A stretch of DNA of 64,000 nt from Vreelandella massiliensis (GTDB lineage Bacteria > Pseudomonadota > Gammaproteobacteria > Pseudomonadales > Halomonadaceae), in assembly GCF_900155385.1 (NCBI RefSeq), contig NZ_LT699745.1:445578-509577 (forward strand). Reading direction: 5' to 3'. The first letter of the stretch is position 1; every line of letters starts with the position of its first letter. The position numbers were made by a program, and so were the translations under genes. This document shows positions 20,856 to 46,999 of the stretch, in pieces. The notes beneath the pieces are model-generated. The model made no database searches. It was not told the origin of the DNA and was given only the letters and a program-made list of their open reading frames with translations.

Positions 20856-21370
20856 GCAGCCCGTTTATTATGCTCGATTCCGTGCATTTTTACCGGGTTG
20901 AGCGACACTGAACCGGTGACTTCCCAGTTCCGAGTGCTGCCCGACCAGCGTTTTGGATGTCGGCGCTTCGCGCTTTCGTATACCTCTTTACGCTGCTTTA
21001 GGCGCTCTTGGTCTACGTCTCGATGACGGTCCGCTGGCTTGACATACTGAATGCCACTGTGCAGATGCTGTTCATTGTAAGCACGCTCGAACGCTAACAT
21101 CTATTCTCGTACCGCGCTCAGCGATGTAAAACCCTTTGCAGGCCATACCGGGCAATATTTAACGGTTCGGAACAGCACTTCCGAGTAAGGGTTATCGTTG
21201 CTCACTCTCGGCCTGCTGTAAGACATCAGCATGCCCATTCTATTAGCTGTTTAGCTAACTCGCCCGATTCCGTGTCGTGGAATTCCCAAGCGATGATTTT
21301 GCGGCTGTAGATGTCCATGATCAGGTAGAGATACCAGTGCTGGCCTCGCACGACGGAGGCGCAATAACTG
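20852..21370 (-). pseudogene. IS3-family transposase remnant hosting intron debris
   Basis: Leftward reading gives YCASVVRGQHWYLYLIMDIY and SRKIIAWEFHDTESGELA from the integrase core, then stops and frameshifts. A C-terminal part from 21100 follows (AYNEQHLHSGIQYVKPADRH, then TGSVSLNPVK). The upstream half of the gene is missing and its place is taken by the 3' end of a group II intron at about 21371. Confidence 0.75.
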
Positions 21371-21475
21371 TTGGGTCGGGCCGGGGCGCCCTGTCAGCTT
21401 TTAAGCTGATGGGTTTCCCCAGCCAGCCCGCCGAACCGGACGTGCGACTCTCACCGCATCCGGCTCTCCACAAGC
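21371..21475 (-). ncRNA. Group II intron 3' end (domains V and VI)
   Basis: On the minus strand, 21466-21433 reads GAGCCGGATG, a GAGA-type loop region and CGTCCGGTTC, the 34-nucleotide domain V hairpin of bacterial group II introns. It is followed by a domain VI-like hairpin whose base is CGGGC paired with GCCCG (21377-21428 region). It lies just 3' of a maturase C-terminus, as expected. The intron lacks its 5' half, so it cannot splice. Confidence 0.75.
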
Positions 21476-32091: not shown

Positions 32092-33775
32092 GGCCGTGTG
32101 AAAACAGAAAAAATCTGGTATGACACAAGAATCTTCCCCTTCAACTGCCCGTTGGCCCCATCTGAGCCATTGCTACGATAATCGCCGACCGCTGCTGTTG
32201 TGACATATGGAAATGATGGAATCATCAGGAACCCACTGCATTCGCAATCACGGCCCTAGAATACAGAGAAAAAAGGGCTGTTACGCCCTCGCAGCCCTCA
32301 TCAACGCATTGACGCCCAGGATCTTTATGACGCGCTTCAGGTTGTACGCCAACACATGAAGACTCATTTCCGTGCTCACATTTCTAAAACGCTTTGTCGC
32401 GAAGTGTGTCGCCCCCATCCACGCCTTTAGCGTGCCGAATGGATGCTCCACCGTTTGTCGCCTTAGGCGCATCATCTCTGGATTCCAATCGAGACGTGAC
32501 TGTGCAGATTCAAGCACATCTTCATGCTCCCAACGTCTGATCCGTCGTTGCTTGCCAGTCGTGCATTTTTCTTTCATAGCGCAGCTTGCACATGCCGAGC
32601 TCCAGTAAGTATGCAGCTTCATTCCCTTTTCTATCGTTTCATATCGCCATATGAGCCGCTGACCAGCGGGACAAAAATATTCATTACTTTCAGGCAAGTA
32701 CCGGAATGCGTCTCTTGGGTAAAAGCCCTTGGCCTGGTTTGGAGATGTCATCGGCTTCGGCAGGTAGGTCGTTATCCCTTCTTTATGGCAGGCGAGAATC
32801 TCTTCCCCCTTGAAGTAGCCTCTGTCAGCTACGACCTTCAGCTCCTTAATGCCAGTGGCTTCACGCGCTTGCTTCGCCATGTTGAAGAGCTGCCCCCGAT
32901 CATGCCCAATATTGGTCACCTCATGGGCCACAATTAAATGGTGCTGGCTATCGACCGCTGTCTGCACGTTATAACCTACCGTCCCGGTGCCTCTACCACT
33001 GGTGGCCATCGCCCTGGCATCTGGATCCGTCAAAGATACTTGCTGGTCGGGAGATTGCAGCCGCTGTTCCTCAACTGTTTGTAATCGAGCCGTTTCTTCC
33101 CTGAGCTTTATAATTTTCTCCTTCAGGTGTTCCGTCTTGGCCTCGGCCAAGGCGGGCTCCGCGTGGTCGGCTGTGTCTAGTTGACCAAGGTACCTATTGA
33201 AGCTTTCTTCGATCTGCTCAAGGCGACGCTTCACCTTGGTCGCTGTGAAATTGCGATTGCGGTTGTTGACGGCTTTGAACTTGCTGCCATCGATGGCCAC
33301 GATGGCTTGGGAGAACAGCTCCAGTCGCCGGCAAAGCACGATGAACTCTCGACACACACGGCGGATGGCATCGCCATTGTCCTTTCTGAAGTCTGCAATC
33401 GTCTTGAAATCTGGTGTCAGGCGCTCTGTCAGCCACATCAGCTCGACATTGCGCTGCGTCTCGCGCTCTAAGCGGCGACTCGACTGGATGCGATTAAGGT
33501 AGCCATAGATATAGAGTTTCAGGAGTACAGCGGGATGATAGGCGGGCCTACCTGTTGCATGCGGATCGACGCCCTTGAAACCAAGTTCTCTGAGGTCGAG
33601 ACCTTCTACGAATGCCTCTATGGCACGGACAGGGTTATCGTCTGCGATGAAGTCGTCCAAAAGCGCAGGGAACAAGGTGCTTTGGTCTCGGGCCTCGCCT
33701 ACCACGAATCGCTTCATCGCCATTTCCTCATCGGACCTGGTCAAAGTATAGCGGCCAACACGTTTTCACACAGCC
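32092..33775 (-). mobile_element. IS1182-family insertion sequence
   Basis: A 1684-base element holding one intact transposase. The inferred ends are GGCCGTGTGAAAAC at 32092-32105 and its near-perfect inverse GTTTTCACACAGCC at 33762-33775 (13 of 14 matching). The right end cuts a short gene start that overlaps a DUF2384-like gene. The left end lies beside the kinase terminator. No target duplication was recognised. Confidence 0.75.
32281..33744 (-). CDS. IS1182-family transposase
   Basis: A 487-residue transposase. The N-terminal DUF772 region is seen (DDFIADDNPVRAIEAFVEGL, TGRPAYHPAVLLKLYIYGYL, RRLERETQRNVELMWL, PDFKTIADFRKDN), followed by the DDE core with AIDGSKFKAVNN (first Asp), TVGYNVQTAVDSQHHLIV (second Asp region), VVADRGYFKGEEI and an RRQTVEHPFGTLKAWMG Glu segment. 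The ATG at 33717 (MKRFVVGE) is an alternative and perhaps truer start. No stops or frameshifts are present, so the element may be active. Confidence 0.92.
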   Translation of the reverse strand: MTRSDEEMAMKRFVVGEARDQSTLFPALLDDFIADDNPVRAIEAFVEGLDLRELGFKGVDPHATGRPAYHPAVLLKLYIYGYLNRIQSSRRLERETQRNVELMWLTERLTPDFKTIADFRKDNGDAIRRVCREFIVLCRRLELFSQAIVAIDGSKFKAVNNRNRNFTATKVKRRLEQIEESFNRYLGQLDTADHAEPALAEAKTEHLKEKIIKLREETARLQTVEEQRLQSPDQQVSLTDPDARAMATSGRGTGTVGYNVQTAVDSQHHLIVAHEVTNIGHDRGQLFNMAKQAREATGIKELKVVADRGYFKGEEILACHKEGITTYLPKPMTSPNQAKGFYPRDAFRYLPESNEYFCPAGQRLIWRYETIEKGMKLHTYWSSACASCAMKEKCTTGKQRRIRRWEHEDVLESAQSRLDWNPEMMRLRRQTVEHPFGTLKAWMGATHFATKRFRNVSTEMSLHVLAYNLKRVIKILGVNALMRAARA

Positions 33776-34786: not shown

Positions 34787-35272
34787 ATGTCATATCGCGC
34801 TAAAGCGCTCTTCTTGGCTCGCCCACCGTCGCTAAAAGACTCACAGGCAATGACAACTTTAGCTATAAAAGCGCTTATCATTCAGCATCCTCCCATCGTA
34901 TACGAAGACCCCAAAAAAAAGAGTGGTGCTCAATTCGCGTGCATCGGCAACCTTTATGCACTGCATATCGCAAAATCTCGTTTACCTGGCAGCGAAAAAG
35001 TAAGGGTTAACGTCGTTGAAGCTCCCTTGAAAAAAGACGTAGAGGCGCTGGCACTGTCTTTAGCATTTTCAGCCGATGCTTTAAATGCGCTCTCACCCAA
35101 AGAATCTTCAACGTACTTAGCATCGCTCTGGCAATACCTAGCTTCTCATCACCCTCAATCGTTAGCGAACGTGTCTGAACAACTAGGACACAAAACCTCC
35201 TTTGCTGATGCATTCAATATTAACCGTCGAGACTTGGCGAAAAAGAAAAAGAAGGAGACTCGTGAAAAATAA
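34787..35272 (+). CDS. First gene of recombinase trio, weakly ParB-like hypothetical protein
   Basis: A 161-residue basic protein ending in a Lys-rich tail (RRDLAKKKKKETREK). The order of segments resembles a ParB/sulfiredoxin-type domain: LARPPSLKDSQAM (ARPPS as in ParB N-terminal boxes), KALIIQHPPIVYEDP, a GNLYALHIAKSRLPG segment where ParB has its GERRxxAA motif, VRVNVVEAP and EALALSLAFSADAL. The ERR catalytic/CTP residues are not conserved, so the assignment is tentative. The ATG at 34787 behind GAGG is preferred to upstream ATGs at 34715 and 34727. Its end overlaps the next start by 11 bases. Confidence 0.6.
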   Translation: MSYRAKALFLARPPSLKDSQAMTTLAIKALIIQHPPIVYEDPKKKSGAQFACIGNLYALHIAKSRLPGSEKVRVNVVEAPLKKDVEALALSLAFSADALNALSPKESSTYLASLWQYLASHHPQSLANVSEQLGHKTSFADAFNINRRDLAKKKKKETREK

Positions 35273-37658
35273 TACGCAGCTTCTCACCCTGCTGGAAGAA
35301 ATCCTGCAGCCTCGTCAGGACTTCTTTGCCATTGAAAAGCTTCAACCGCTATTGGCACCCACTATTGAAAACGTGGCTAGCATTGGCGACGAAGCCTGGG
35401 ATTCATCAGCGCTTTTAACGCTGGCCGAGGCTATCAGTAGTGGTAAGTTAGAACTATCGTCACAGGAGGGCCAAGGCGAAAGAGGTATTCACGGCTCAAA
35501 CCCTGTGCACGGTGCCCTGCTCAAGCTTGCCAAAGCACCAGATGAGACAGAAAGGCTAGATGACCGGCTGATGCTGCTGGCCCACGTCATCTATGCGGCG
35601 TATCAATGGCGTGCCGATATGCAGGCTGCTGAAGAAGATCAAAATTTTACCGAACAGCGCGAAAAGCGTCTTAAGAAAACCACCTACCTGAAGAACTTAG
35701 AAGCCGCTTGCAAAGTGGTTCGGCGCATAGAAGCCGACTGGCTGGACTTTCTTTCGCCGCTAGACCAACCGACGGAAGAGCTGCGCAAACGGTGCGATGC
35801 GTATGAAGTGGATGATGATACCAAGCAACAAGATATTTATATCAAAGAGTTAGGCCGTTTTTTGGCTTACGCATTGAATAAGCGCCAGCCCCGACGGGGA
35901 TACCAAGAAGAAAAAGAATCCTCTTCAGAAAATAGACCAACTCGTCGGCGTCACTTTGACGATGATCCTGACGACCGCTGGCAGGAAACATCTGCTTCTA
36001 CCGTTGCCCTACCACCGGATATAAGCGCAAAAGCTGAAGGGGAACTTCGTACGTCGGGGTTATCGACAACAGAGGAGCGTCCATCTACCGAGCTGACACA
36101 AAGTGACGCCCCCATCAAAGCCGCAAAGGGCGACTCCTCTCTACAAGCGGTGTTTCGCACGCGTAGCCAGCAAATTTTTCAAGACAAGGCAGCGCAACTG
36201 CTGCCGGGGCGGTGGGAACAGCTGAGTGCTTTTGATCTTTATCAGCTAATGCAGCAGCTCAACCAATTAGATTCAAGCAAGCGCCGCCGTATTGGCTGCG
36301 TGATCGGATTGTTGTTAACAACTGGCCGAAGCTTGGAAAGCGTTCTCAATGCACAGATTGTTACGCGTAATAAGCAAATCCCTCAAGTCATTAGCGAGCA
36401 ATCCATTTATGTCTTTTATAGCGACGCTCCCTATTGGATATCCGGCGTCTACCGACCGGAAAGCAGTCGCCAGTTGACGGGTGAGTGGCCTGCCCACATG
36501 CGCAGCACAAAAGACCGTATGGCATTCCCTATCTTGCCGTTTTGCTGGCAGATGATGGCATCCCACGCACGCCACCTCGCCTCAAGGGCTAAAGAGCGCT
36601 CACATTCATTGCCACTGTTCACAAAAGACGGCTGGGCGGAGCTAGAGCGCGACCTAAAAACACTTCTCTCCGACACTAACCGTCAAACAGGAGCCCGTTT
36701 AACCGAATACCGCTTAAGCACTCATCTTTTCAATATGCTCAACCAGGGTGACGCGGATTTAACAGCAGCATGTTTAGTGGCAGCTCGTAATCCCACGCTC
36801 GGCCAACAGGCATCGCTCTACTATTACGCACCGAGTACGTGTTATCTGGAACAGCGCTATACCAAGGCCCTAAACGCCATCGAGCATCAGGGCTCAGATG
36901 CACAGCATCCAGCAGTAAACGAGAGTGTTGCTATCGCAGGCACGACAAAGCAATCAGAAGAAATGACCTATGTCGGTTCTAAGCTGGTGCCCCAAACGGC
37001 TTATATAGCAGATCTCGTTGCTAGCATGCAAACGCAGATCAAAGCCGCCAAAAAGAACGCATCTCCTGTAACGCTTTTCCGAATGCATAACGCCTATGTG
37101 GCCTATACCGTCGCCATGCTGATGTTTTCAACCGGCTATCGCAGCGTTCGCGATCCGCTGCCTCTGTGGAACAATATATCCCTGTCACGTCAACTGATTG
37201 TGATTGCCGACAAAACCGACGATAAGCAAAGCCATGCGCGTTTTTTACCGCTCACCAACATGATGGTCGAGCAGTTGCAGCACTATCACCGCCACCGCCA
37301 AGGCCTTTTAGGGCGCCTGCAATTTTTTCTGCAGAAGGATTGGGACACACCGTTTATGTTTTTGGACGATAACGGCAACCCCAAAGCTGTCACGCCCTCA
37401 CGGTTGAAAAGCCAGCTCCACTGGCCTGGTGACCCGCCTCTGAATATCAATCGGCATTTCCTTCACACCCACCTAAAGGAAAATGGCTGCTCATCAGAAA
37501 TTGTTGACGCGTTCATGGGGCACTGGGATGCAGGCCAAGAACCCTGGGCAAGCTACTCAACATTGTGTCCTCAAGAATACCGAAATCTCTTAACGCCGAT
37601 CATCGAGCGCTTAATGTTGCGCCTAGGCTGGAAAGCTTTAAAAGGAGCAGCACTGTGA
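35262..37658 (+). CDS. Giant tyrosine-recombinase-like protein (798 residues), NxxR variant
   Basis: It starts at GTG 35262 behind AAGGAG, overlapping the previous gene. Residues 1-200 are helical; 200-300 form a charged linker (RRRHFDDDPDDRW). The C-terminal 250 residues follow the tyrosine recombinase fold: LMFSTGYRSVRDPL (Arg I, about 626), HARFLPLTN (strand with Lys), NINRHFLHTHLKENG (about 728), DAFMGHWDAG (about 751) and ASYSTL (Tyr, about 764). The usual HxxR is NxxR. At 798 residues it is more than twice a normal integrase. It may be a weakly active partner of the next protein or a target-capture subunit. The family was not recognised. Confidence 0.75.
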   Translation: MKNNTQLLTLLEEILQPRQDFFAIEKLQPLLAPTIENVASIGDEAWDSSALLTLAEAISSGKLELSSQEGQGERGIHGSNPVHGALLKLAKAPDETERLDDRLMLLAHVIYAAYQWRADMQAAEEDQNFTEQREKRLKKTTYLKNLEAACKVVRRIEADWLDFLSPLDQPTEELRKRCDAYEVDDDTKQQDIYIKELGRFLAYALNKRQPRRGYQEEKESSSENRPTRRRHFDDDPDDRWQETSASTVALPPDISAKAEGELRTSGLSTTEERPSTELTQSDAPIKAAKGDSSLQAVFRTRSQQIFQDKAAQLLPGRWEQLSAFDLYQLMQQLNQLDSSKRRRIGCVIGLLLTTGRSLESVLNAQIVTRNKQIPQVISEQSIYVFYSDAPYWISGVYRPESSRQLTGEWPAHMRSTKDRMAFPILPFCWQMMASHARHLASRAKERSHSLPLFTKDGWAELERDLKTLLSDTNRQTGARLTEYRLSTHLFNMLNQGDADLTAACLVAARNPTLGQQASLYYYAPSTCYLEQRYTKALNAIEHQGSDAQHPAVNESVAIAGTTKQSEEMTYVGSKLVPQTAYIADLVASMQTQIKAAKKNASPVTLFRMHNAYVAYTVAMLMFSTGYRSVRDPLPLWNNISLSRQLIVIADKTDDKQSHARFLPLTNMMVEQLQHYHRHRQGLLGRLQFFLQKDWDTPFMFLDDNGNPKAVTPSRLKSQLHWPGDPPLNINRHFLHTHLKENGCSSEIVDAFMGHWDAGQEPWASYSTLCPQEYRNLLTPIIERLMLRLGWKALKGAAL

Positions 37659-40600
37659 ACGATAAGACCATCTGGCCCGGCTGGAAGCTAGCGAAACCAA
37701 CAAAAATGGCAACTGATGGTCAGGAAACACGTCGTTACCAGCGCACAATGGGCCAATATAAGAGCTTATTAGCGACTCTTGAGACTTTGGAAAGTGCCGT
37801 ACCTGGAGCTTTAGAAGGAAAGCACGGGCTCGTTTTTCCGGACAAAGCCATTACGGCTGTCTTCGACAACCTTCACCAATCAGCCTCGCCTCACGCGCTG
37901 CAAATCGCACACAATTTGCTGGTAAAAGGGTTAGAGCGCGGCCATGCCACACTTAGCTGGCAGGTCTCTATTCCTAGCCCCCTGGTGGTCGTTAAGCGGC
38001 CTTCACCTACCGTAACGACCCACTCATTCGCCGAATTGCATACGTGGGATCCTGTGGTAGAGATGCACGATGCAATGCCAAGCTCGACGGGACTTAGCGG
38101 GCATGCCCTGCATAAATGGCTTACCGGGCGATGGATATTTCAACTAATTCGCGAAGGCGCTCTGCTGCATAAACGTTACTTCGAGCAATTGCCGGATGCT
38201 TTTGAGCAAGGCATCACCTTTTCAGCTGGCACGGGGTTTCTCACGTTAAAAGAATGCGTACAGCCCGCCAATGCAGGCGACGAAAATGAAGCCCCAGAAA
38301 ACGGTAACGACACATCGAATGCCGACCCACTTGCCAAATCGCCCCCTGAACCTCCCATCGAAGAAGAGCAGCGTTTTTGCTACCGGCGCTTATTTTTAAG
38401 CCCGCTGAATCAACTGCTGCTTCTTAACACGTATCAGCGTATCGGCAGGATATGGCCTCGTACTGCTTCCAAAATTATCGTGCCCGTCGAGCAGTGCTTG
38501 ATGTTTTATCTCAATCAGATTGCCGCCAATAAAACACCGGCGAGCTTTTCAGCTCTTTTATCAATGGCTAAAACAGCGGCGGCGCTGGAAATGATGCCGT
38601 TGCTGACACATTACGCAAGCAAAACCGATATTGCGTTATCACTACGCCCATCAACGTGGCAGAGACTGCTTCACCGCAACGTGTTAGCCGCTACTGCAAT
38701 GGAGAGCGCTGGCGATGAGGTTTACCTGGACTTTCAGACACCCACTCTGGCTCGCACTACCGCTTCCGACCAGCTAAAACAACTTCGCCAGCTGCAGCGG
38801 TGTTTCTCGGCATCGTTGGTGGGCCAAACAGGCAGACGCGAGGCAATCGCCAATATTGATGCCTTTCTCGCTGTTTCAAACAATAACGATGTCATGGTCA
38901 CGTTATTGGCAAAATGGTGCCAAAAGTTGATGCAAAAAGGCGGCCGCGTTAAATCCAGGCTTGCCGCCCGGTCTGCTGCTACGTATTTATCGATCATAGC
39001 GCGCCCACTTGTCGCCCATAGCCAAGCGTTTGGAGATGTATCTTCAGCGAGTGCTAATGAGTGGGAAGCGCTCTATGAAAACGTCCTGAATAGCATAAAG
39101 CCAAACGGAGATCGGGCAAAAACGCAAAACCGCCTCTGCGATTTCCATCATTTTTTGGTCGACACACAGGCAGCGCCCCCTATCGACCTGGAAAACACAA
39201 GTGGCGTAAAACAGCGCGTCGATGTGAATATCATTACGCCCGCCGAATTTCGCCGCGCTCTGGCATTGATTGACGCCTCCCAACAGCCCGAGCGCTTTCG
39301 TACCATGCAAAAGCTTGCGCTAATACTGGGTTACCGCCTCGGGATTCGACGTAGTGAATGCGCGGGGCTGATGTTAAAAGATGTCCCCTACCTTTTTGAT
39401 CACGACGCTCAAGATGGCGAGGTCATCATTCGCTCCAATGAGTACCGACAGGGTAAGAGCTACTCGGCCACACGACGGTTGCCGCTGTGGCTGTTGATGC
39501 CAGAAGAGCGGAAGCAACTCATTGACTGGGTGAAGCGTCGCCAAGGGGAAATCACCACCAAACAGATACAGAAGCAGTTACTTTTTTGCCGCGGCGGAAA
39601 TGGCCGTTTACTGCTGGAAGACAAGGCCCTCTTTCACCCCATACAAACCGCCTTGAAAACAGTCAGTGGCGATCACTCGCTACGCTACCACCACCTGCGG
39701 CATAGCTTTGTGACCTTTATCCTGCTGCGTCTGCTGGAGCGCGTACCAGGCGAGCTACTACCCCGCACATGGCTAACGGATGACCATCGCACTATCGCAA
39801 TGCCAAACGCTGACGCCGATATATCGGCTTTAGCCGGCCTTGCGCCTCAAGATCGCCCTTCTCGCAAACGGCTCTGGCAACTCGCGCTTTGGGCAGGGCA
39901 TGCAAGCCCCGAAGAAACGCTTAGCTCCTATACCCACTTATTGGACTGGGTGCTTGGCCAAGCCCTACGTGAACGCTTTAACCCCACGCTCAGTATCGAT
40001 CAACAGTTCGTGCTGCTGAACCTTCAAACAAAAACAGCGCTGAGCAGTTGGCGTAATCGCCGGAAGTTAAAAGGCCAGACACAAGCCAGCGAACTATTGC
40101 AGTATCTAACAGACGACTGGAAGAAATACCTGACAAAAGATCCTCTGGACGACGAATGGCAACCTTATCAGGCGCCGACCGAAAATCCGCTGGATAACCC
40201 CATGGAAGCCGCGTTTGACTGGCCGGAAGCCACGACGATTTATCAAAGCCTACGGCTTGTCGAGCAACAAGAGCAACGCAACGTACCCCTTGATGATGCT
40301 ATCTGGCAGACCGCCAGGCGGTTCGTTCTCGACCCTGAGCAGCTTTCTCTCTGGTTAGAAAATGGCGAAGTGCTGATGCAACGCAAAACGCGACGCACCA
40401 ATCAGCAATTTAGCCGTGAAGACAATCGCTATGATCGGTCGCGGCGCGTCGCGTCAAAAAATATTTACCAGCCAGAGCTGGAACGTTGCATGGCCCCGCC
40501 GATCAAGCCGCCCGTGTTGAGAGAAGCGGGGCAGTTTTTTCACCGCCTGCTCGATTGGCATCAATCACAGCCCACCGTTGCAGAGGAAAGCCTCATAACG

Positions 40601-40978
40601 CTGCGTAATCACATGCAACGCAGCACCGGGCAGCTCGCACTACCCGATGCGGAAGCCATTAACTGTGTTCGCGAACTCTTACGCCCGCTGCGCTGTTTTC
40701 AGCATGTTTATCTCGTTGTAGAAGTCGAGGCCACGGCGAAGGAGAAGAGCATTAAACAGCATTGGTCTAAAGCGACCGGCATTCCCCATAAGCGTATTGA
40801 TTTAATACCCACGCCCTCCCCTTCAGGCCGCACCCGCCACTGGTACGGCAATGCCAACCTCAAGATCACGCGGGGCCATTACTCAGAGTTCCAGCAGCCG
40901 CTATGGGAAGCGGTTCGCTTTGCCGCGTTCATGGCGATGCTGGTGTTGGGCTTGGGGGATGACTCAACGTCAAGTTAA
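37655..40978 (+). CDS. Giant tyrosine recombinase (1107 residues)
   Basis: It starts at GTG 37655, sharing GTGA with the previous stop and preceded by AAGGAG. About 530 residues of unrecognised helical sequence precede the catalytic domain, which has GYRLGIRRSECAGL (Arg I, about 558), SATRRLPLWLL, YHHLRHSFVTFI (HxxRH, about 678), LWAGHASPEETLSSYTHLLD (GH about 746 and Tyr about 757). All catalytic residues are present. The spacer between HxxRH and GH is about 65 residues against roughly 22 in normal integrases. A further 330 residues follow the Tyr, ending with a membrane-like segment (AAFMAMLVLGLG). It probably recombines DNA together with its two operon partners. Confidence 0.82.
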   Translation: MNDKTIWPGWKLAKPTKMATDGQETRRYQRTMGQYKSLLATLETLESAVPGALEGKHGLVFPDKAITAVFDNLHQSASPHALQIAHNLLVKGLERGHATLSWQVSIPSPLVVVKRPSPTVTTHSFAELHTWDPVVEMHDAMPSSTGLSGHALHKWLTGRWIFQLIREGALLHKRYFEQLPDAFEQGITFSAGTGFLTLKECVQPANAGDENEAPENGNDTSNADPLAKSPPEPPIEEEQRFCYRRLFLSPLNQLLLLNTYQRIGRIWPRTASKIIVPVEQCLMFYLNQIAANKTPASFSALLSMAKTAAALEMMPLLTHYASKTDIALSLRPSTWQRLLHRNVLAATAMESAGDEVYLDFQTPTLARTTASDQLKQLRQLQRCFSASLVGQTGRREAIANIDAFLAVSNNNDVMVTLLAKWCQKLMQKGGRVKSRLAARSAATYLSIIARPLVAHSQAFGDVSSASANEWEALYENVLNSIKPNGDRAKTQNRLCDFHHFLVDTQAAPPIDLENTSGVKQRVDVNIITPAEFRRALALIDASQQPERFRTMQKLALILGYRLGIRRSECAGLMLKDVPYLFDHDAQDGEVIIRSNEYRQGKSYSATRRLPLWLLMPEERKQLIDWVKRRQGEITTKQIQKQLLFCRGGNGRLLLEDKALFHPIQTALKTVSGDHSLRYHHLRHSFVTFILLRLLERVPGELLPRTWLTDDHRTIAMPNADADISALAGLAPQDRPSRKRLWQLALWAGHASPEETLSSYTHLLDWVLGQALRERFNPTLSIDQQFVLLNLQTKTALSSWRNRRKLKGQTQASELLQYLTDDWKKYLTKDPLDDEWQPYQAPTENPLDNPMEAAFDWPEATTIYQSLRLVEQQEQRNVPLDDAIWQTARRFVLDPEQLSLWLENGEVLMQRKTRRTNQQFSREDNRYDRSRRVASKNIYQPELERCMAPPIKPPVLREAGQFFHRLLDWHQSQPTVAEESLITLRNHMQRSTGQLALPDAEAINCVRELLRPLRCFQHVYLVVEVEATAKEKSIKQHWSKATGIPHKRIDLIPTPSPSGRTRHWYGNANLKITRGHYSEFQQPLWEAVRFAAFMAMLVLGLGDDSTSS

Positions 40979-41058: not shown

Positions 41059-41343
41059 TTAGCCGCTCAGCACCTCATAGGCGTTGATAAAGCAAAGCTT
41101 CTGACTGACAAAGCGCGCCCACTTGACCGTTACGTTTAGCCGCTGCCCCATGGTCGGTACGCCCTGCGCTGTAACGTGACGATCAGTGAGATAGAAGCGG
41201 TAATTGCCCTTCGGGCCAATCAGGTAAAGCGACCACACTTGGTGCTGCATCAGCCATTCGGGGCCCTCAACCCCCGCCACATAAAGCTCACCCTCAAACT
41301 GACGCCCTGCCCGCTGAGCCGTGGTTTTTTGTGTTACTGCCAT
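41059..41343 (-). CDS. Hypothetical protein of the integrase module
   Basis: A 94-residue protein from the ATG at 41343, which has a perfect GGAGG at seven bases. It has a strand-rich pattern (FEGELYVAGVEGPEWLMQHQ, VWSLYLIGPKGNYRFYLTDR, LNVTVKWARFVSQKLCFINA) suggestive of a small beta barrel or OB-like nucleic acid binder, though no family was recognised. Its start overlaps the upstream gene's stop by ten bases, so it is the last gene of the integrase operon. Confidence 0.6.
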   Translation of the reverse strand: MAVTQKTTAQRAGRQFEGELYVAGVEGPEWLMQHQVWSLYLIGPKGNYRFYLTDRHVTAQGVPTMGQRLNVTVKWARFVSQKLCFINAYEVLSG

Positions 41344-41654
41344 GTTTGATCCTCCCACGCCCAGAGCGTGCGCTCGAGTTCCGCCAGCAGCAGCGGAATG
41401 GCATAGCGGTTGGCGTCAAGCTTCAGCTGCTTCAGCGTGCTGCCCACCCATGTCACGAGTGCTTCAAAATTATTCGCTTCATGCCCCTCGCCGAGCCACA
41501 TGACCAACGCGCTGCCGTTGGCTAAATGTGTGGCGACTGCCAGAGACTCCGCTAGGCGCCGTTCGACACGGCGCTGGGCCTGACGCGCTGCCGTCGCGCG
41601 TAGTGAATGTTCGATATCGTTCTGAGTCATCATCAGATCATCAAGGTTTTTCAT
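41334..41654 (-). CDS. Hypothetical helical protein of the integrase module
   Basis: A 106-residue alpha-helical protein (HSLRATAARQAQRRVERRLA, then LALVMWLGE-like centre and LLLAELERTLWAWEDQTW). A good AGGAG ribosome site lies upstream of the ATG. It begins nine bases after the integrase stop and overlaps the next gene, so all four leftward genes form one operon. No family was recognised. Small helical proteins in such positions often modulate integration or excision, but this is not shown here. Confidence 0.6.
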   Translation of the reverse strand: MKNLDDLMMTQNDIEHSLRATAARQAQRRVERRLAESLAVATHLANGSALVMWLGEGHEANNFEALVTWVGSTLKQLKLDANRYAIPLLLAELERTLWAWEDQTWQ

Positions 41655-41663
41655 CGCTATCTC

Positions 41664-42827
41664 CTAGGCGCGTTTTTGTTCGAGCATACGTTCAAAGGCA
41701 GAGCCGTCTTGGCGCGTTAGGTTGGGCACAAAGCGCGAGTAAACGCGGAACAGCATTTCCGTGGTGGTATGGCCCATTTGGCGAGCGATCCATTCCGGGC
41801 TCTCGCCAGCGGCTAACCACAACGTCGCGGCGGTATGGCGAGTTTGGTAAGGCCGGCGCTTTTTCAAACCAAGCTCTTCAAGCAACGGATACCAAACACG
41901 CTTGGTGACGTTGTGATGCGAAAGCTGGGTGCCTTTTCGCGTGGTGAACACCAGCCCTGTCTTGCCCGTCACGGCGTACTGCATCTTCAGCGCGTCAAAA
42001 ACTGGCTGCGACATATCGATTGAACGATAGGAGCCATCAGTTTTAGTCGGCACGAACTGACCGCGCACCAGCGCTTGATGCACCAGGATTTGCCGGCGAA
42101 CAAAATCGACGTGCTCCCACGTAAGGCCATCAATCTCCCCGGTCCGCATACCGGTAAAAAAGCGCACGATGTAGTACTGACGAAAGTCGTCGCGCACGTG
42201 GTCGATGATCTGCTGCACTTCATCAAGGGAGAATGGCTCAACATCCGTGCGTGGCACATTGAGCGATTTAATCCCGCGATACGGTGAGCTAAACTCATAG
42301 CGGTCGGCGGCTTCATTCAACATCATGCGCAATGGCGTCATGATGTGGTTAATACGGCTGGCAGAGATCTTCTTGCCGCTCCGGGTGTTCACTTTGGCGA
42401 GGGAAGCCCGGAACTCAAGAATCTCTGCGCGGGTGATGCTGCCGACCTCTTTATCTCCCAAGGCCGGCAAAATGTGCCTATCCAAACACCCTCGCACGGT
42501 CACGATCTGCGACTCACGCCATTCGATCTCCTTCTCCGCGAACCACGTCTCGGCAAACTCAAACAGCAGCGGTGTCGCGTGGTAACCGCCGACTGCCGTT
42601 AACGCGCGCTTGCTTAGCGTCTTTGCCCGCGGGCTATCCGGAAAGTAACGGCCGTAATCAAATGACCCCAGCGTGATCTCCGCTTCGATCTTCTCCAAAA
42701 TCCGCTCTAGCTTCTTGCGGTTGGCAGCCGTGTTATCCAGTGACGTTTGTTCGCGGCAGCGTTTCCCTAGATAGCGAAAATCAAAGTACAGCTTGCCGGT
42801 CTCTTTACGCGCAGCGACTTTACCCAT
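41664..42827 (-). CDS. int: Tyrosine-type site-specific integrase
   Basis: A 387-residue phage/island integrase from the ATG at 42827 (GGAGGT upstream). An arm-binding DUF3596-like N-terminus (KLYFDFRYLGKRCREQTSL) is followed by a SAM-like core-binding domain (about 100-190) and the catalytic domain: RFFTGMRTGEIDGL (Arg I), RPYQTRHTAATLWL (the second Arg-His with Tyr in place of the first His, common in this subgroup), ARQMGHTTTEMLFRVYSRFV (GH and catalytic Tyr). It would integrate the surrounding island, possibly at the tRNA-Arg near 46.9 kb. It overlaps the excisionase-like gene by eight bases. Confidence 0.92.
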   Translation of the reverse strand: MGKVAARKETGKLYFDFRYLGKRCREQTSLDNTAANRKKLERILEKIEAEITLGSFDYGRYFPDSPRAKTLSKRALTAVGGYHATPLLFEFAETWFAEKEIEWRESQIVTVRGCLDRHILPALGDKEVGSITRAEILEFRASLAKVNTRSGKKISASRINHIMTPLRMMLNEAADRYEFSSPYRGIKSLNVPRTDVEPFSLDEVQQIIDHVRDDFRQYYIVRFFTGMRTGEIDGLTWEHVDFVRRQILVHQALVRGQFVPTKTDGSYRSIDMSQPVFDALKMQYAVTGKTGLVFTTRKGTQLSHHNVTKRVWYPLLEELGLKKRRPYQTRHTAATLWLAAGESPEWIARQMGHTTTEMLFRVYSRFVPNLTRQDGSAFERMLEQKRA

Positions 42828-43056
42828 GGCAAACACCTCCCCCGGCCATCGGCACGCCAATGCTTTCTTCTTTGGAGTGCAGCTGCATGTCGCGCTCGAT
42901 CGGCTCCCACAGGTACAGAATCTTGCGGCCGCCAAACGGGCGGATGTAGTGAATGCCTTCCAGCAGGACATCGTCTTTTAAACGTTCGCGGATGGTGCGG
43001 GCATCATATTTAATGCGTTCGGCAAGCTCGCTTGTTGTCAAGTAGTGAGTAGGCAT
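42820..43056 (-). CDS. xis: Excisionase-like winged helix-turn-helix protein
   Basis: A 78-residue basic protein with a MerR/Xis-type helix-turn-helix at the N-terminus (YLTTSELAERIKYDARTIRE, RLKDDVLLEGIHYIRP) followed by GGRKILYLWEPIERD, which matches AlpA/excisionase-like proteins that direct integrases toward excision. AAGGAG precedes its ATG. It is first in the leftward operon whose promoter lies in the palindromic gap at 43057-43211. Confidence 0.78.
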   Translation of the reverse strand: MPTHYLTTSELAERIKYDARTIRERLKDDVLLEGIHYIRPFGGRKILYLWEPIERDMQLHSKEESIGVPMAGGGVCHG

Positions 43057-43080
43057 CTTATGTACTCCTTAGTGGCTTTA

Positions 43081-43098
43081 TGTAGCTTACACGCTACA
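43081..43098. promoter_or_regulatory. Palindromic operator between xis and repressor genes
   Basis: TGTAGC-TTACAC-GCTACA is a perfect 6-base inverted repeat with a 6-base spacer, located 25 bases upstream of the leftward excisionase start. A further half site TGTAGC lies near 43134. The position and symmetry suggest the operator of the divergently encoded XRE regulator, repressing the integrase operon. Confidence 0.6.
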
Positions 43099-43211
43099 TA
43101 ATAGACAGAGGAAAGATGATGTCAAGCGCTTTTTGTAGCTTTTACTCAACATTAGATGCGGGAACCCAAAGTGTTTGGTAGGATGAAGCCAATGTAAAAA
43201 GGCCACCCACT

Positions 43212-43457
43212 ATGATTCGATTCCGTTTAAAAGAGCTACTTGCTGAGAAAGGCTTCCAAGAAAATCGGCGGGTTACGCTTGATGAAGTGTCGCAAGAAAC
43301 CGGTATACACCGGACAACCCTGTCGAAAATCGCTAACCAGCGTGGCTACAACACCGGCACTGAAAATGTTGATCGGTTGTGTGCATATTTTGGCTGTAAG
43401 GTCGAAGACATCATCGAATATGTGCCCATGTCGGATACGCCCAAATCAGCGGATTAA
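43212..43457 (+). CDS. XRE/Cro-type repressor
   Basis: An 81-residue single-domain helix-turn-helix protein: IRFRLKELLAEKGF, then TLDEVSQETGIHRTTLSKIA as the two DNA-reading helices and VDRLCAYFGCKVEDIIEYVP as the closing helix, typical of the Cro/C1 (HTH_26) group. It is divergent from the integrase operon and probably its lysogeny-type repressor via the palindrome at 43081. Confidence 0.85.
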   Translation: MIRFRLKELLAEKGFQENRRVTLDEVSQETGIHRTTLSKIANQRGYNTGTENVDRLCAYFGCKVEDIIEYVPMSDTPKSAD

Positions 43458-43478
43458 ATTTATTCTCAAGGAAGCAAT

Positions 43479-43568
43479 ATGATCCTCACCCTCAACCAGC
43501 TTGAGCGGCACCTGTTCAAGGCAGCCGACATCCTGCGCGGGCGTATGGACGCCTCGGAGTTCAAGTAG
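43479..43568 (+). pseudogene. HsdM N-terminal fragment ending in TAG
   Basis: Behind AAGGAAG, 29 codons read ILTLNQLERHLFKAADILRG and MDASEFK, the first residues of a type I restriction methylase (HsdM) where family members continue EY. Here a TAG replaces the expected Glu codon, the next codon is still TAC, and the sequence then leaves the family. It is the stump of a lost restriction system. Confidence 0.7.
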
Positions 43569-43685
43569 TACCCCGACTTCTAACGCGGCTGAGTGGGGGA
43601 TGACCAACGATAAATTAAAGAGAGTGCAAGGATGCCCACATACGGAAACATGTTGGTTTAGCGGAACGAGAAAGCTGAAATAGAG

Positions 43686-44805
43686 ATGGCCCGCAAGGTG
43701 CCGATGGGTTTCACCGATGGCCGCAACGAGGCCTGGCTGCGCGACCTGCTCGCCGGCAACCCGGACCTGCTGCCTATCGAGGAGGTTGCGCCCCGCTGGC
43801 GCCGCTCTGCATTGAGCTCTCGACCGAGGCCGGCCTGGTGGATGTGGTCTTCATCAACCCCTCCGGCCGGCTGACGCTGGTGGAGTGCAAGCTGTGGCGC
43901 AACCCCGAGGCGCGGCGCAAGGTGATCGCCCAGATCCTCGACTACGCCCGGGCCGTCTCCGGCTGGAGCTACGCCGACCTGCAGCGCCGTGTCGCGGCTG
44001 CCACGGGGCGCAAGGGCAACGTCCCCTTCAAGGCCGCCCGGGAGCTGCAGCAGGACCTTGACGAGGCCGCCTTCGTGGACGCCACCGCCCGCGCCCTACG
44101 CGAGGGGCGTTTCCTGCTGCTGATCGCCGGCGACGGCATCTGCGAAGGCATCAGCGGCATGGCGGACCTGATCACCCGCAATGCTGCACTCGGCTTCAGC
44201 TTTGGGCTGGTGGAAGTCGCCCTCTACCAGTTCGGCGAGCAGGGTCTGTTGGTGCAGCCGCGGGTGGTGGCCAGGACCGAGACTATCGAGCGCACCTTCG
44301 TCCACCTTCAGACGTGCGATGGTAGCGCGCTGCAGGAGGTCGCCGAGGAAGCCGAAGTCGAGGTAAGAGGCGAAGCCCCCTCAATGAGCGACGAGCGCGC
44401 CTGGTGGGAGCCGCTTACGCGCATCAGCTTCGATGACCCGGAGCAGGAAGCGCCGACCTACCGGCCCCGCAACCACGTTAGGGTATCCATGCCTTACCCG
44501 GGGATCTGGCTTACCGCTTTCCGTTCGATGGGGGGGATGGTGTCTGTGGCGTGTTTTGCACTGGCGCCAAGTCGGAGGCCAAGCAGATACTCAACCGTCT
44601 CAACGAGGAGCGTGAGCAGATCCTCGCCGAGCTCCCCGAGAGGAGCGACAGCCGCCGATCCAACGGTGACCTTGGCTTCGCCAGCTATGCTCAGCTCAGT
44701 GACTTCCCCAGTGACGGCGAATGCCGCGAGTGGGTGGCGCAGCAGCTCAACCAGTTCGTCAACGCCTTGTGCCCGAGTTTGAAGGCGATTCAAGGTGCGA
44801 ATTGA
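43686..44805 (+). pseudogene. Frameshifted PD-(D/E)XK nuclease-like gene
   Basis: Three frames join to one protein of about 370 residues: KVPMGFTDGRNEAWLRDLLA, NPDLLPIEEVAPRW (first frame), then GLVDVVFINPSGRLTLVECK with LWRNPEARRKVIAQILDYAR (second frame; VD...ECK is a PD-(D/E)XK catalytic core), and from about 44540 QILNRLNEEREQILAELPER (third frame). Two single-base frameshifts near 43800 and 44540 break it. The GC content is clearly higher than that of its neighbours, suggesting foreign origin. Such proteins accompany defence islands. Confidence 0.7.
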
Positions 44806-45167: not shown

Positions 45168-46478
45168 TCACATACCTAGATCCTGGGCCTGATCAGTCAA
45201 GGCCTGTAGCGCAGCTTCGCTGGAAATAGCTTGGCCTGGCTCCTCTCCCCACAGCATACCGATAGGAACGGCGAAGCAGCCCGGCACTTGCAGTTTGAGG
45301 CAGTGGCGGCCGGTGTAGATTAACATTCCCCCACGGAAGCTTTTGCCGGCCTGATCGGCGAGCCGAGCGAGCCCGGCGGCGTCCTTGGCTTGAATGCTGG
45401 CGGCACGCTTGACCTCCACGCCCCAGAGTTCTTGGCCACGCTCAATAACGAGATCAACTTCTACCTGATCCTTGTCTCGATAATGTGAGAACCGCAATTC
45501 CGGGTCGAGCCAGGAGGCCTGAGCGACCAGCTGCTCGACCACATGACTCTCCAGCAAAGCACCGAAGCGTTCTGCCTCTGCCAGCCACTGATTCGGTCCC
45601 AGGCGTCCCAGTGCTGCGGCAAGACCGGTATCTACCAGGTGCAACTTGGGGCTTTTGATCAGCCGCTTGGCCTGGTTGCGATGCCAGGCAGGGAGCTGAT
45701 GAACCAGAAATAGACGCTCCAGGATACCGAGGTACTTGGCAACCGTGCTGCGCTCCATTCCTAGCTCCTTGCTCAGATTACTGATGTTGAGCAGGCTCGC
45801 GGTGCGGTAAGCGAGCACCTCCATTAGGCGCAGCATCCCGTCCTCGTCCTGTATAGCAGCGATATCTCGCACGTCACGCTGTACGATGGCATTGAGGTAC
45901 TGCCGATACCACTGACGTGCCCGATGGGGCAGCCGACGGTTGGGTTCAGGATAGCCACCCTGACATAGCACCTCTGCCGTGGGGGAAAGTGGAACACTAT
46001 CCGTCACCACCCTCGTCGTCATTTGCCCATCCATCAGCGTGGCCAGCAAGGTAGACGTACTCACCCGTTTTTCCTGTTCTGTCAGCGGATGCAGGTAGAT
46101 AACTTCCATGCGACCAGCGAGGGAGTCCTGCGCCTTAGGCAGCAACAGCAAGTTGGCAGAGCCTGTCAGCAAAAAACGGCCCGGCCGACGATCACGGTCT
46201 ACTACCGATTTGATCGCCAATAGTAGCTCTGGTGCCCGCTGTACCTCATCTAGAGTGACCCGTTCGGGGAGATTCTCGACAAAGCCGATTGGATCCTGCT
46301 GCGCCGCTTCAAGTAGCGTCGAATCATCCAGGTTAAGATAAGTGCGCTCGGGGTCGACACGCTGAGCAAGCGTCGTCTTGCCCACCTGACGAGGACCCAG
46401 AAGACAGACCACCGGTGTATCAGTGAGGGAGTCAAGCACTCGATCTCGAATCAACCGGGGAAGATAAGGGGTTACCAT
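45168..46478 (-). CDS. AAA ATPase with DUF4143 domain
   Basis: A 436-residue protein of the archaeal-type ATPase/DUF4143 family: Walker A GPRQVGKTTLAQ at about 32, Walker B VTLDEVQRAPELL at about 74, sensor GRFLLTGSANLL at about 100, a DUF4143 winged-helix region (YRTASLLNISNLSKELGMER at about 230) and a C-terminal nuclease-like segment VEVDLVIERGQELWGVEVKR with the PD-(D/E)XK-like D...ExK pattern at about 350. The family is common in mobile regions and its function is unsettled. It is the last complete gene before the tRNA. Confidence 0.9.
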   Translation of the reverse strand: MVTPYLPRLIRDRVLDSLTDTPVVCLLGPRQVGKTTLAQRVDPERTYLNLDDSTLLEAAQQDPIGFVENLPERVTLDEVQRAPELLLAIKSVVDRDRRPGRFLLTGSANLLLLPKAQDSLAGRMEVIYLHPLTEQEKRVSTSTLLATLMDGQMTTRVVTDSVPLSPTAEVLCQGGYPEPNRRLPHRARQWYRQYLNAIVQRDVRDIAAIQDEDGMLRLMEVLAYRTASLLNISNLSKELGMERSTVAKYLGILERLFLVHQLPAWHRNQAKRLIKSPKLHLVDTGLAAALGRLGPNQWLAEAERFGALLESHVVEQLVAQASWLDPELRFSHYRDKDQVEVDLVIERGQELWGVEVKRAASIQAKDAAGLARLADQAGKSFRGGMLIYTGRHCLKLQVPGCFAVPIGMLWGEEPGQAISSEAALQALTDQAQDLGM

Positions 46479-46922: not shown

Positions 46923-46999
46923 TGGCGCGCCCGGCAGGATTTGAACCTGCGACCCTCGGCTTCGGAGGCCGATACTCTATCCAACTGAGCTACGGGCGC
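46923..46999 (-). tRNA. tRNA-Arg (anticodon CCG)
   Basis: A 77-base cloverleaf on the minus strand. The acceptor stem is GCGCCCG (46999-46993) with CGGGCGC, the D-loop contains AGCTCAGTTGGATAGA, and the anticodon arm TCGGC-CTCCGAA-GCCGA gives anticodon CCG. The T-arm has GGTTCGAATCC, the discriminator base is G and CCA is encoded. It reads the CGG codon. tRNA 3' ends are common island attachment sites, and the accessory region lies on its 3' side. Confidence 0.96.

Follow-up and report, generated by a model that had tools for sequence, protein, structure and literature searches.

A gene trio with two very large recombinase-fold proteins beside a convergent integrase in putative tRNA-targeting genomic islands of Vreelandella and relatives

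Introduction

Several described mobile elements encode more than one recombinase. The sections available from the report on SE elements describe an ordinary-size recombinase (IntA), a large one (IntB), a protein with the recombinase fold lacking the catalytic residues (Tfp) and a small protein (Srap); circle formation requires intA, intB and srap, and tfp could not be deleted (PMC10214605). The same sections present Tn554 as a set of one ordinary recombinase, one large recombinase and a small protein, TnpA, TnpB and TnpC (PMC10214605). GInt elements, in the parts of their description used here, are islands with variable cargo whose ginABCD genes form a multi-recombinase core with a small protein (PMC5385486). 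Here, we analyse a stretch of 64,000 nucleotides from Vreelandella massiliensis (contig NZ_LT699745.1, positions 445,578 to 509,577; hereafter the window, its genome being G000). It contains three overlapping genes, A, B and C (hereafter the trio), the last two encoding very large proteins with a recombinase fold, and next to them an integrase gene on the opposite strand. An earlier reading of the window (the original prediction) had drawn attention to the trio.

We propose, with middling confidence, that a family of genomic islands targeting transfer RNA (tRNA) genes, known here from genome sequences alone, may use the trio in its recombination machinery. Trio and integrase probably contribute to a mode of island movement that is so far undescribed.

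Results

The trio is conserved and accompanied by a convergent integrase

The three frames are open over the lengths that the original prediction gave them (table 1), with overlaps of 11 bases between A and B and 4 bases between B and C. The predicted ribosome-binding sites of the AAGGAG type were also found before B and C: AAGGAG stands 4 bases upstream of the B start and AAAAGGAG precedes C. The 4-base B/C geometry is kept in all 14 contexts of the genus in which the end of B and the start of C could be read, 13 of them directly and the last (G038) once the alignment was extended by two residues.

At E ≤ 1e-3, C has 37 homologues including itself (7999 candidates scored), the named ones mostly from Halomonas or Vreelandella, and B has 64 (8000 scored), extending to Marinobacter and Pseudomonas. 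Within the genus, 28 of 82 genomes have a C match, which is strong in 16. The order A-B-C is the same in 12 of these 16 contexts, and A is likewise in its place in 12, window included; three contexts are cut by the contig (G004, G019 and G072), and G068 is without A and most of B. More widely, C-like genes occur in eight of 369 genomes of the class (our own included) and B-like genes in 11 of the 369, as well as in 25 of 293 genomes of the order, three of which are members of the genus. With its gene order kept in relatives, the trio is a co-occurring and conserved unit rather than a set of scattered homologues. The ratio of nonsynonymous to synonymous substitution rates (dN/dS) is 0.11–0.57 across the 11 gene pairs computed, with dS above 1.3 (saturated) in some pairs, few changes between G018 and G048, and C of G040 and G028 not computable. 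Judged by these ratios, the trio is under purifying selection.

The conservation does not end with C. The block from 40985 to about 43030–43570 is conserved in 15 of 15 relatives compared (in G068 the limits are 40463 and 42710). The original prediction had the trio right and stopped short of this block, which contains a convergent arm-type integrase (PF12167, E 6.6e-24; PF00589, E 5.7e-17) whose true start is probably near 42827. At a minimum of 85% identity, the integrase is found in 16 of the 82 genomes of the genus, and these are exactly the ones with a strong C match. In all 16 the two genes are on opposite strands and at most about 3 kb apart (from coordinates, with gene maps for seven); G006 has two extra genes between them. 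The same arrangement is found in Aeromonas caviae (L127) and in other families. Outside the genus, we considered 21 B-C loci whose sequence extends 0.9 kb or more beyond C, counting fused loci apart and excluding four loci cut by a contig end (L224, L226, L288 and L290) and four with B and no recognised C (L284, L300, L301 and L302). An integrase of the same subfamily lies nearby in 10 of the 21, convergent in eight (L223, L225, L227, L229, L272, L273, L285 and L291, the match in L225 being a fragment with E 9e-6) and on the same strand in two (L274 and L276). The chance expectation is about 0.2% per locus, a rough value that applies to other genera the density of the genus (34 subfamily copies at a minimum of 53% identity in 82 genomes). 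No subfamily integrase was seen near the G033-type trios.

The islands end at tRNA-Arg half-sites

In 14 of the 16 genomes, the contig that carries C and the integrase also has a tRNA-Arg(CCG) gene on the side of the integrase; it is intact in 13 (ARAGORN) and a half-site in G068. In G025 and G028 it is on a separate contig. At the far end, where no intact tRNA is present, the anticodon-arm segment CCTCGGCTTCGGAGGCC recurs together with a trailer and the tRNA's 3' half. Half-sites at both ends delimit islands of 12–115 kb in eight genomes: G068 (12 kb), G018 (49 kb), G048 (59 kb), G006 (66 kb), G075 (86 kb), G000 (109 kb), G046 (113 kb) and G077 (115 kb). The left limit in the window genome is less sure, the repeat there being a 17/18 copy with an island-type trailer; because of this trailer, a tandem of islands is possible.

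The original prediction had suggested comparing occupied and empty sites; the island ends that we found are tRNA-Arg half-sites. Among 29 loci with the tRNA-Arg trailer, 18 are uninterrupted tRNA-Arg(CCG) genes, all from genomes without a strong C match. The other 11 are interrupted, and they include eight loci, the full number from genomes with a strong C match, and three from genomes without one (G029, G045 and G066). The right flanks of the uninterrupted G073 and of G018 are 94.8% identical over 1516 bp. The left flanks align over about 150 bp at most, so the right side of the empty site is documented in full, and the left side is attested only by the trailer. The original prediction of a mobility core of an island class is retained in that the trio lies in genomic islands; it changes in that the unit is the trio with its convergent integrase, and in that the ends are well outside the trio.

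B and C share a recombinase fold and differ in their catalytic residues

Structure models and structure alignment place a recombinase domain in both B and C, the fold comparisons spanning mainly residues 402–783 of B and 413–765 of C. PF00589 scores 27.2 bits in C (cut-off 27.1) and 19.6 bits in B, which is under the cut-off, while NCBIfam 20.0 gives Xer-type matches in C alone, far under their cut-offs, and has no model above its curated cut-off for any trio protein. C has all the catalytic residues (Arg, Lys, HxxR, His and Tyr759). Among 17 aligned B proteins, counted by eye from the alignment as were the residues of C, the Tyr is kept in six, the second Arg in eight and the full set in one; the B protein of the window retains the Tyr and has a His in place of the second Arg. 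By these alignments, B is usually degenerate and C is equipped with the residues found in active tyrosine recombinases. Hence, of the two giant recombinases originally predicted, the fold stands for both and the catalytic residues are usually missing in B.

The secondary structure of the models suggests that the N-terminal parts of B and C hold a further, degenerate fold. Profile comparisons of B 318–545 and C 130–345 with the catalytic domains found nothing (for example, E 0.057–0.063 for the two parts of B), and they decide nothing because the method barely links the known catalytic domains of B and C themselves (E 0.014–0.035). There is one weak profile match between the tail of C and the N-terminal part of B (E 5.6e-4).

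At the limits applied, no Pfam, NCBIfam or PHROGs entry matches protein A. One distant A-like protein matches ParB_N weakly (E 0.0085) and Noc (E 9e-4). The two groups of A proteins, that of the window and the distant one, do not align in the profile comparison (E 0.11). Given the absence of library matches and this result, we rejected A as a ParB, and the weak likeness to ParB that had been proposed for it is not supported.

Some relatives fuse B and C and lie near tRNA-Met

In relatives of about 1750–1920 residues, B and C are joined in one protein. For example, a fusion of 1790 residues matches the B profile at 317–797 (E 7e-17) and then the C profile at 1077–1627 (E 3.6e-21). A tRNA-Met end lies less than 300 bp from the start of the fused gene in six of 18 fused loci: the tRNA-Met 3' repeat at 119 bp in four genomes and at 122 bp in one (a weak match), and an intact tRNA-Met at 285 bp in another. 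The 18 loci include L304 (1473 residues, B alone recognised, 339 bp upstream), L295 (513 bp) and L286 (1350 residues). One shuffle per upstream stretch served as control and all shuffles scored below 15; the match in L295 scores 16, no better than an uncounted match in L303 on the other strand and 953 bp off. With a tRNA-Met 3' repeat or an intact tRNA-Met 119–285 bp ahead of the fused gene, such an island can have the giant gene at one end, pointing inward, and the integrase at the other. A second class of integrase, at 53–56% identity, has 18 copies; of the 12 examined, 10 are next to tRNA-Met. This class is found on the opposite strand, about 44–90 kb from a fused gene or a distant trio, in G007, G020, G028, G032, G036, G039, G046 and G049. 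Two genomes with a distant trio have a tRNA-Met repeat about 4–5 kb ahead of it.

Other arrangements were observed among these relatives. The integrase and the fused gene are divergent in L124 (G075:C23), L296 and L297, as if two islands abutted, and in L124 a tRNA-Met 3' repeat precedes the fused gene. A second related trio of the genus, encoding proteins of about 260, 787 and 790 residues, has no arm-type integrase nearby (L110:9661-15154, minus strand; also L109, L112, L115, L116 and L117); the L110 trio matches the B-type profile with E 9e-9 and the C-type profile with E 1e-14. In G048 (and G020), a gene of about 798 residues, helicase-like by eye, lies divergently ahead of the distant trio (L068:13163-15562, minus strand).

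The trio occurs on Acinetobacter plasmids

C is matched in 227 of 72,556 plasmid records, of which 223 are from Acinetobacter. The A-B-C set, with A recognised by position, is present in the three Acinetobacter plasmid stretches that were read around a C match. In one of them, pAb-C102_1 (L160, 9726-21174), the trio comes after parA-parB with a transposase gene in between, and C has 1271 residues; given this position, the trio may belong to the backbone of that plasmid. In the Acinetobacter plasmid L125, a subfamily integrase follows on the same strand. A fourth Acinetobacter plasmid, picked for its integrase, has no trio annotated in the 49 kb read. A related trio is found on a Vibrio plasmid. 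None of 50,697 phage records matched C at E 1e-3, and PHROG 33072, whose function is not known, matches the recombinase part of C.

Features of the window

The coordinates are collected in table 1. Other genes and matches were observed around the trio. Left of it there is a DDE transposase gene (DUF772/DDE_Tnp_1, 32281-33744, minus strand), with a copy of 80% similarity beyond the integrase in G040. Between the integrase and tRNA-Arg, there is an AAA/DUF4143 ATPase gene (45168-46478) matching the PADLOC candidate PDC-S01 with E 5e-156, and another gene (43838-44782) that matches PDC-S11 weakly. A group II intron domain matches at 21370-21468 on the minus strand (Rfam RF00029, 54.9 bits).

Table 1. 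Position, strand and description of the features in the window.
Feature	Position	Strand	Description
Gene A	34787..35272	+	Open reading frame, ATG start; small protein of 161 residues, no recognised family; first gene of the trio
Gene B	35262..37658	+	Open reading frame, GTG start; 798 residues; C-terminal tyrosine-recombinase catalytic fold at 573-790
Gene C	37655..40978	+	Open reading frame, GTG start; 1107 residues; complete tyrosine recombinase at about 413-765, flanked by about 410 residues on the N-terminal and about 340 on the C-terminal side
s1	41059..41358	-	Small gene (99 residues) between C and the integrase; HD-domain gene at that place in L127 and L223
s2	41334..41654	-	Small gene (106 residues)
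Integrase	41664..42971	-	Arm-type tyrosine integrase (PF12167 and PF00589), convergent with the trio
tRNA-Arg(CCG)	46923..46999	-	Right attachment site of the island
CCTCGGCTTCGGAGGCCG	46954..46971	+	Segment repeated at the far end of the island; 17/18 copy at G000:C2:383765, about 109 kb leftward, outside the window

Discussion

If the trio takes part in moving the islands, the arm-type integrase would choose the tRNA site and carry out an ordinary site-specific reaction. The existence of B-C fusions suggests that B and C might act as one heteromeric recombinase, in which B would mainly bind DNA and C would cut, and A could assist as a small accessory protein. The trio and the integrase would then jointly excise, circularise or re-insert the island. 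A bolder version, which we regard as rather doubtful, is that B and C form an obligate asymmetric recombinase with one cutting subunit, working with the arm-type integrase. With a single cutting subunit, the complex could make only one strand exchange, which would lead to copy-out of the tRNA island and not to its excision.

Several observations weigh against a part of the trio in moving the islands. Genes are broken or missing in G068, in G006 and G028 (where B is split) and in G046 (where C is split). No direct or inverted repeat hugs the cluster of trio and integrase in 13 loci searched from 2.5 kb before A to 2.5 kb beyond the integrase (exact 10-base seed, score of at least 14; the integrase starts of G038, G027 and G075 are approximate). 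Element ends hugging the trio were rejected for this reason and because the island ends are the distant tRNA-Arg half-sites; in the tRNA-Arg islands the cluster is internal, with other DNA on both sides. Twelve of the 18 fused loci are without a tRNA-Met end near the gene. The subfamily integrase is missing from the available stretch in 11 of the 21 non-genus B-C loci, seven of which come from one genus (g329); in L280, one of the 11, an integrase matching less well (E 1e-24) lies about 4 kb further on. No excision or integration of an island was seen in this analysis of genome sequences. Finally, to our knowledge, tRNA islands with arm-type integrases as a rule do without partners of this kind, so the trio could simply be a passenger.

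As a passenger, the trio would be cargo or a maintenance system travelling with the integrase, acting for instance in dimer resolution or in the stabilisation of plasmids or islands. We consider this unlikely, if worth keeping in mind given the 11 loci with no integrase nearby, the three Acinetobacter plasmid stretches with A-B-C, one of them shortly after parA-parB, and the concentration of plasmid matches in that genus (223 of 227). Against it stand the perfect co-occurrence of strong C and integrase in the genus (16 of 16), the recurrence of the convergent arrangement in other families and the B-C fusion at a tRNA-Met end in six of 18 loci, and no PADLOC model matches A, B or C at E 0.01. 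Gamma-Mobile-Trio (GMT) elements, to which the original prediction had pointed, have a recombinase and an integrase-like protein among their proteins. It is improbable, in our view, that the trio belongs to these elements, directly or as a diverged branch: the number of genes is equal (three), but no GMT-named NCBIfam model was found for the window trio or for its Vibrio, Aeromonas, Acinetobacter and other relatives (whether the library contains GMT models was not established), and no GMT name appears among the homologue matches listed. On the other side, there is a related trio on a Vibrio plasmid, and GMT islands are prevalent in Vibrio according to the passages available (PMC12039261).

The trio could also be an independent nested element with its own ends, of the SE or GInt kind, lying beside the integrase by chance. 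Such elements, in the parts of the reports at hand, also encode a small protein along with recombinases of both kinds, active and catalytically incomplete (PMC10214605, PMC5385486). We find this very hard to reconcile with the same position next to the integrase in 16 of 16 members of the genus and with the lack of repeats flanking trio and integrase within 2.5 kb. Nor did hhalign detect profile similarity to IntB or Tfp of SE-6945 (E 0.55 for C against IntB, 0.13 for B against Tfp and 0.4 for B against IntB), a low-power comparison that used single SE sequences and a method that recovers the G033-type relatives but also misses the fold shared by B and C (E 0.019).

In several bacterial families, a trio working within the recombination machinery of the islands would link ordinary tRNA integrases to a pair of very large recombinase-fold proteins to which the searched libraries assign no named family. 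The natural B-C fusions and the degenerate partners are material for the question of why some mobile elements need several recombinases, which SE, GInt and Tn554 also raise. If copy-out is true, the class would be a further multi-recombinase element besides these three, spread over gammaproteobacterial chromosomes and Acinetobacter plasmids.

How does the locus compare with the described systems? As far as the SE report available to us goes, those elements likewise combine an ordinary recombinase, a large recombinase, a fold protein without catalytic residues and a small protein, a parallel in organisation only. Their proteins are smaller, Tfp having 581 residues and IntB 720, and their order is an intA-tfp-intB operon followed by srap, whereas in the window the small gene comes first, followed by B and C, and the integrase is convergent, arm-type and tRNA-associated. 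GInt elements, from the parts of their description used here, share the multi-recombinase core and the small protein; the window, with its small gene first, two recombinase-like genes and a third that is convergent, is set apart from them by gene order and strand. Tn554, compared by its partial description only, has the same kinds of protein without a counterpart of B. RIT elements are three tandem tyrosine recombinases of ordinary size; the trio is unlike them, as originally predicted, since its products have 161, 798 and 1107 residues and the first has no recombinase match. GMT elements likewise have three signature proteins on islands, a likeness drawn by name and from citing passages only. 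The locus also resembles the tRNA islands of arm-type integrases: an integrase with PF12167 and PF00589 and tRNA-derived repeats at both ends are both present, and the type found in the window differs from them by the constant trio beside the integrase.

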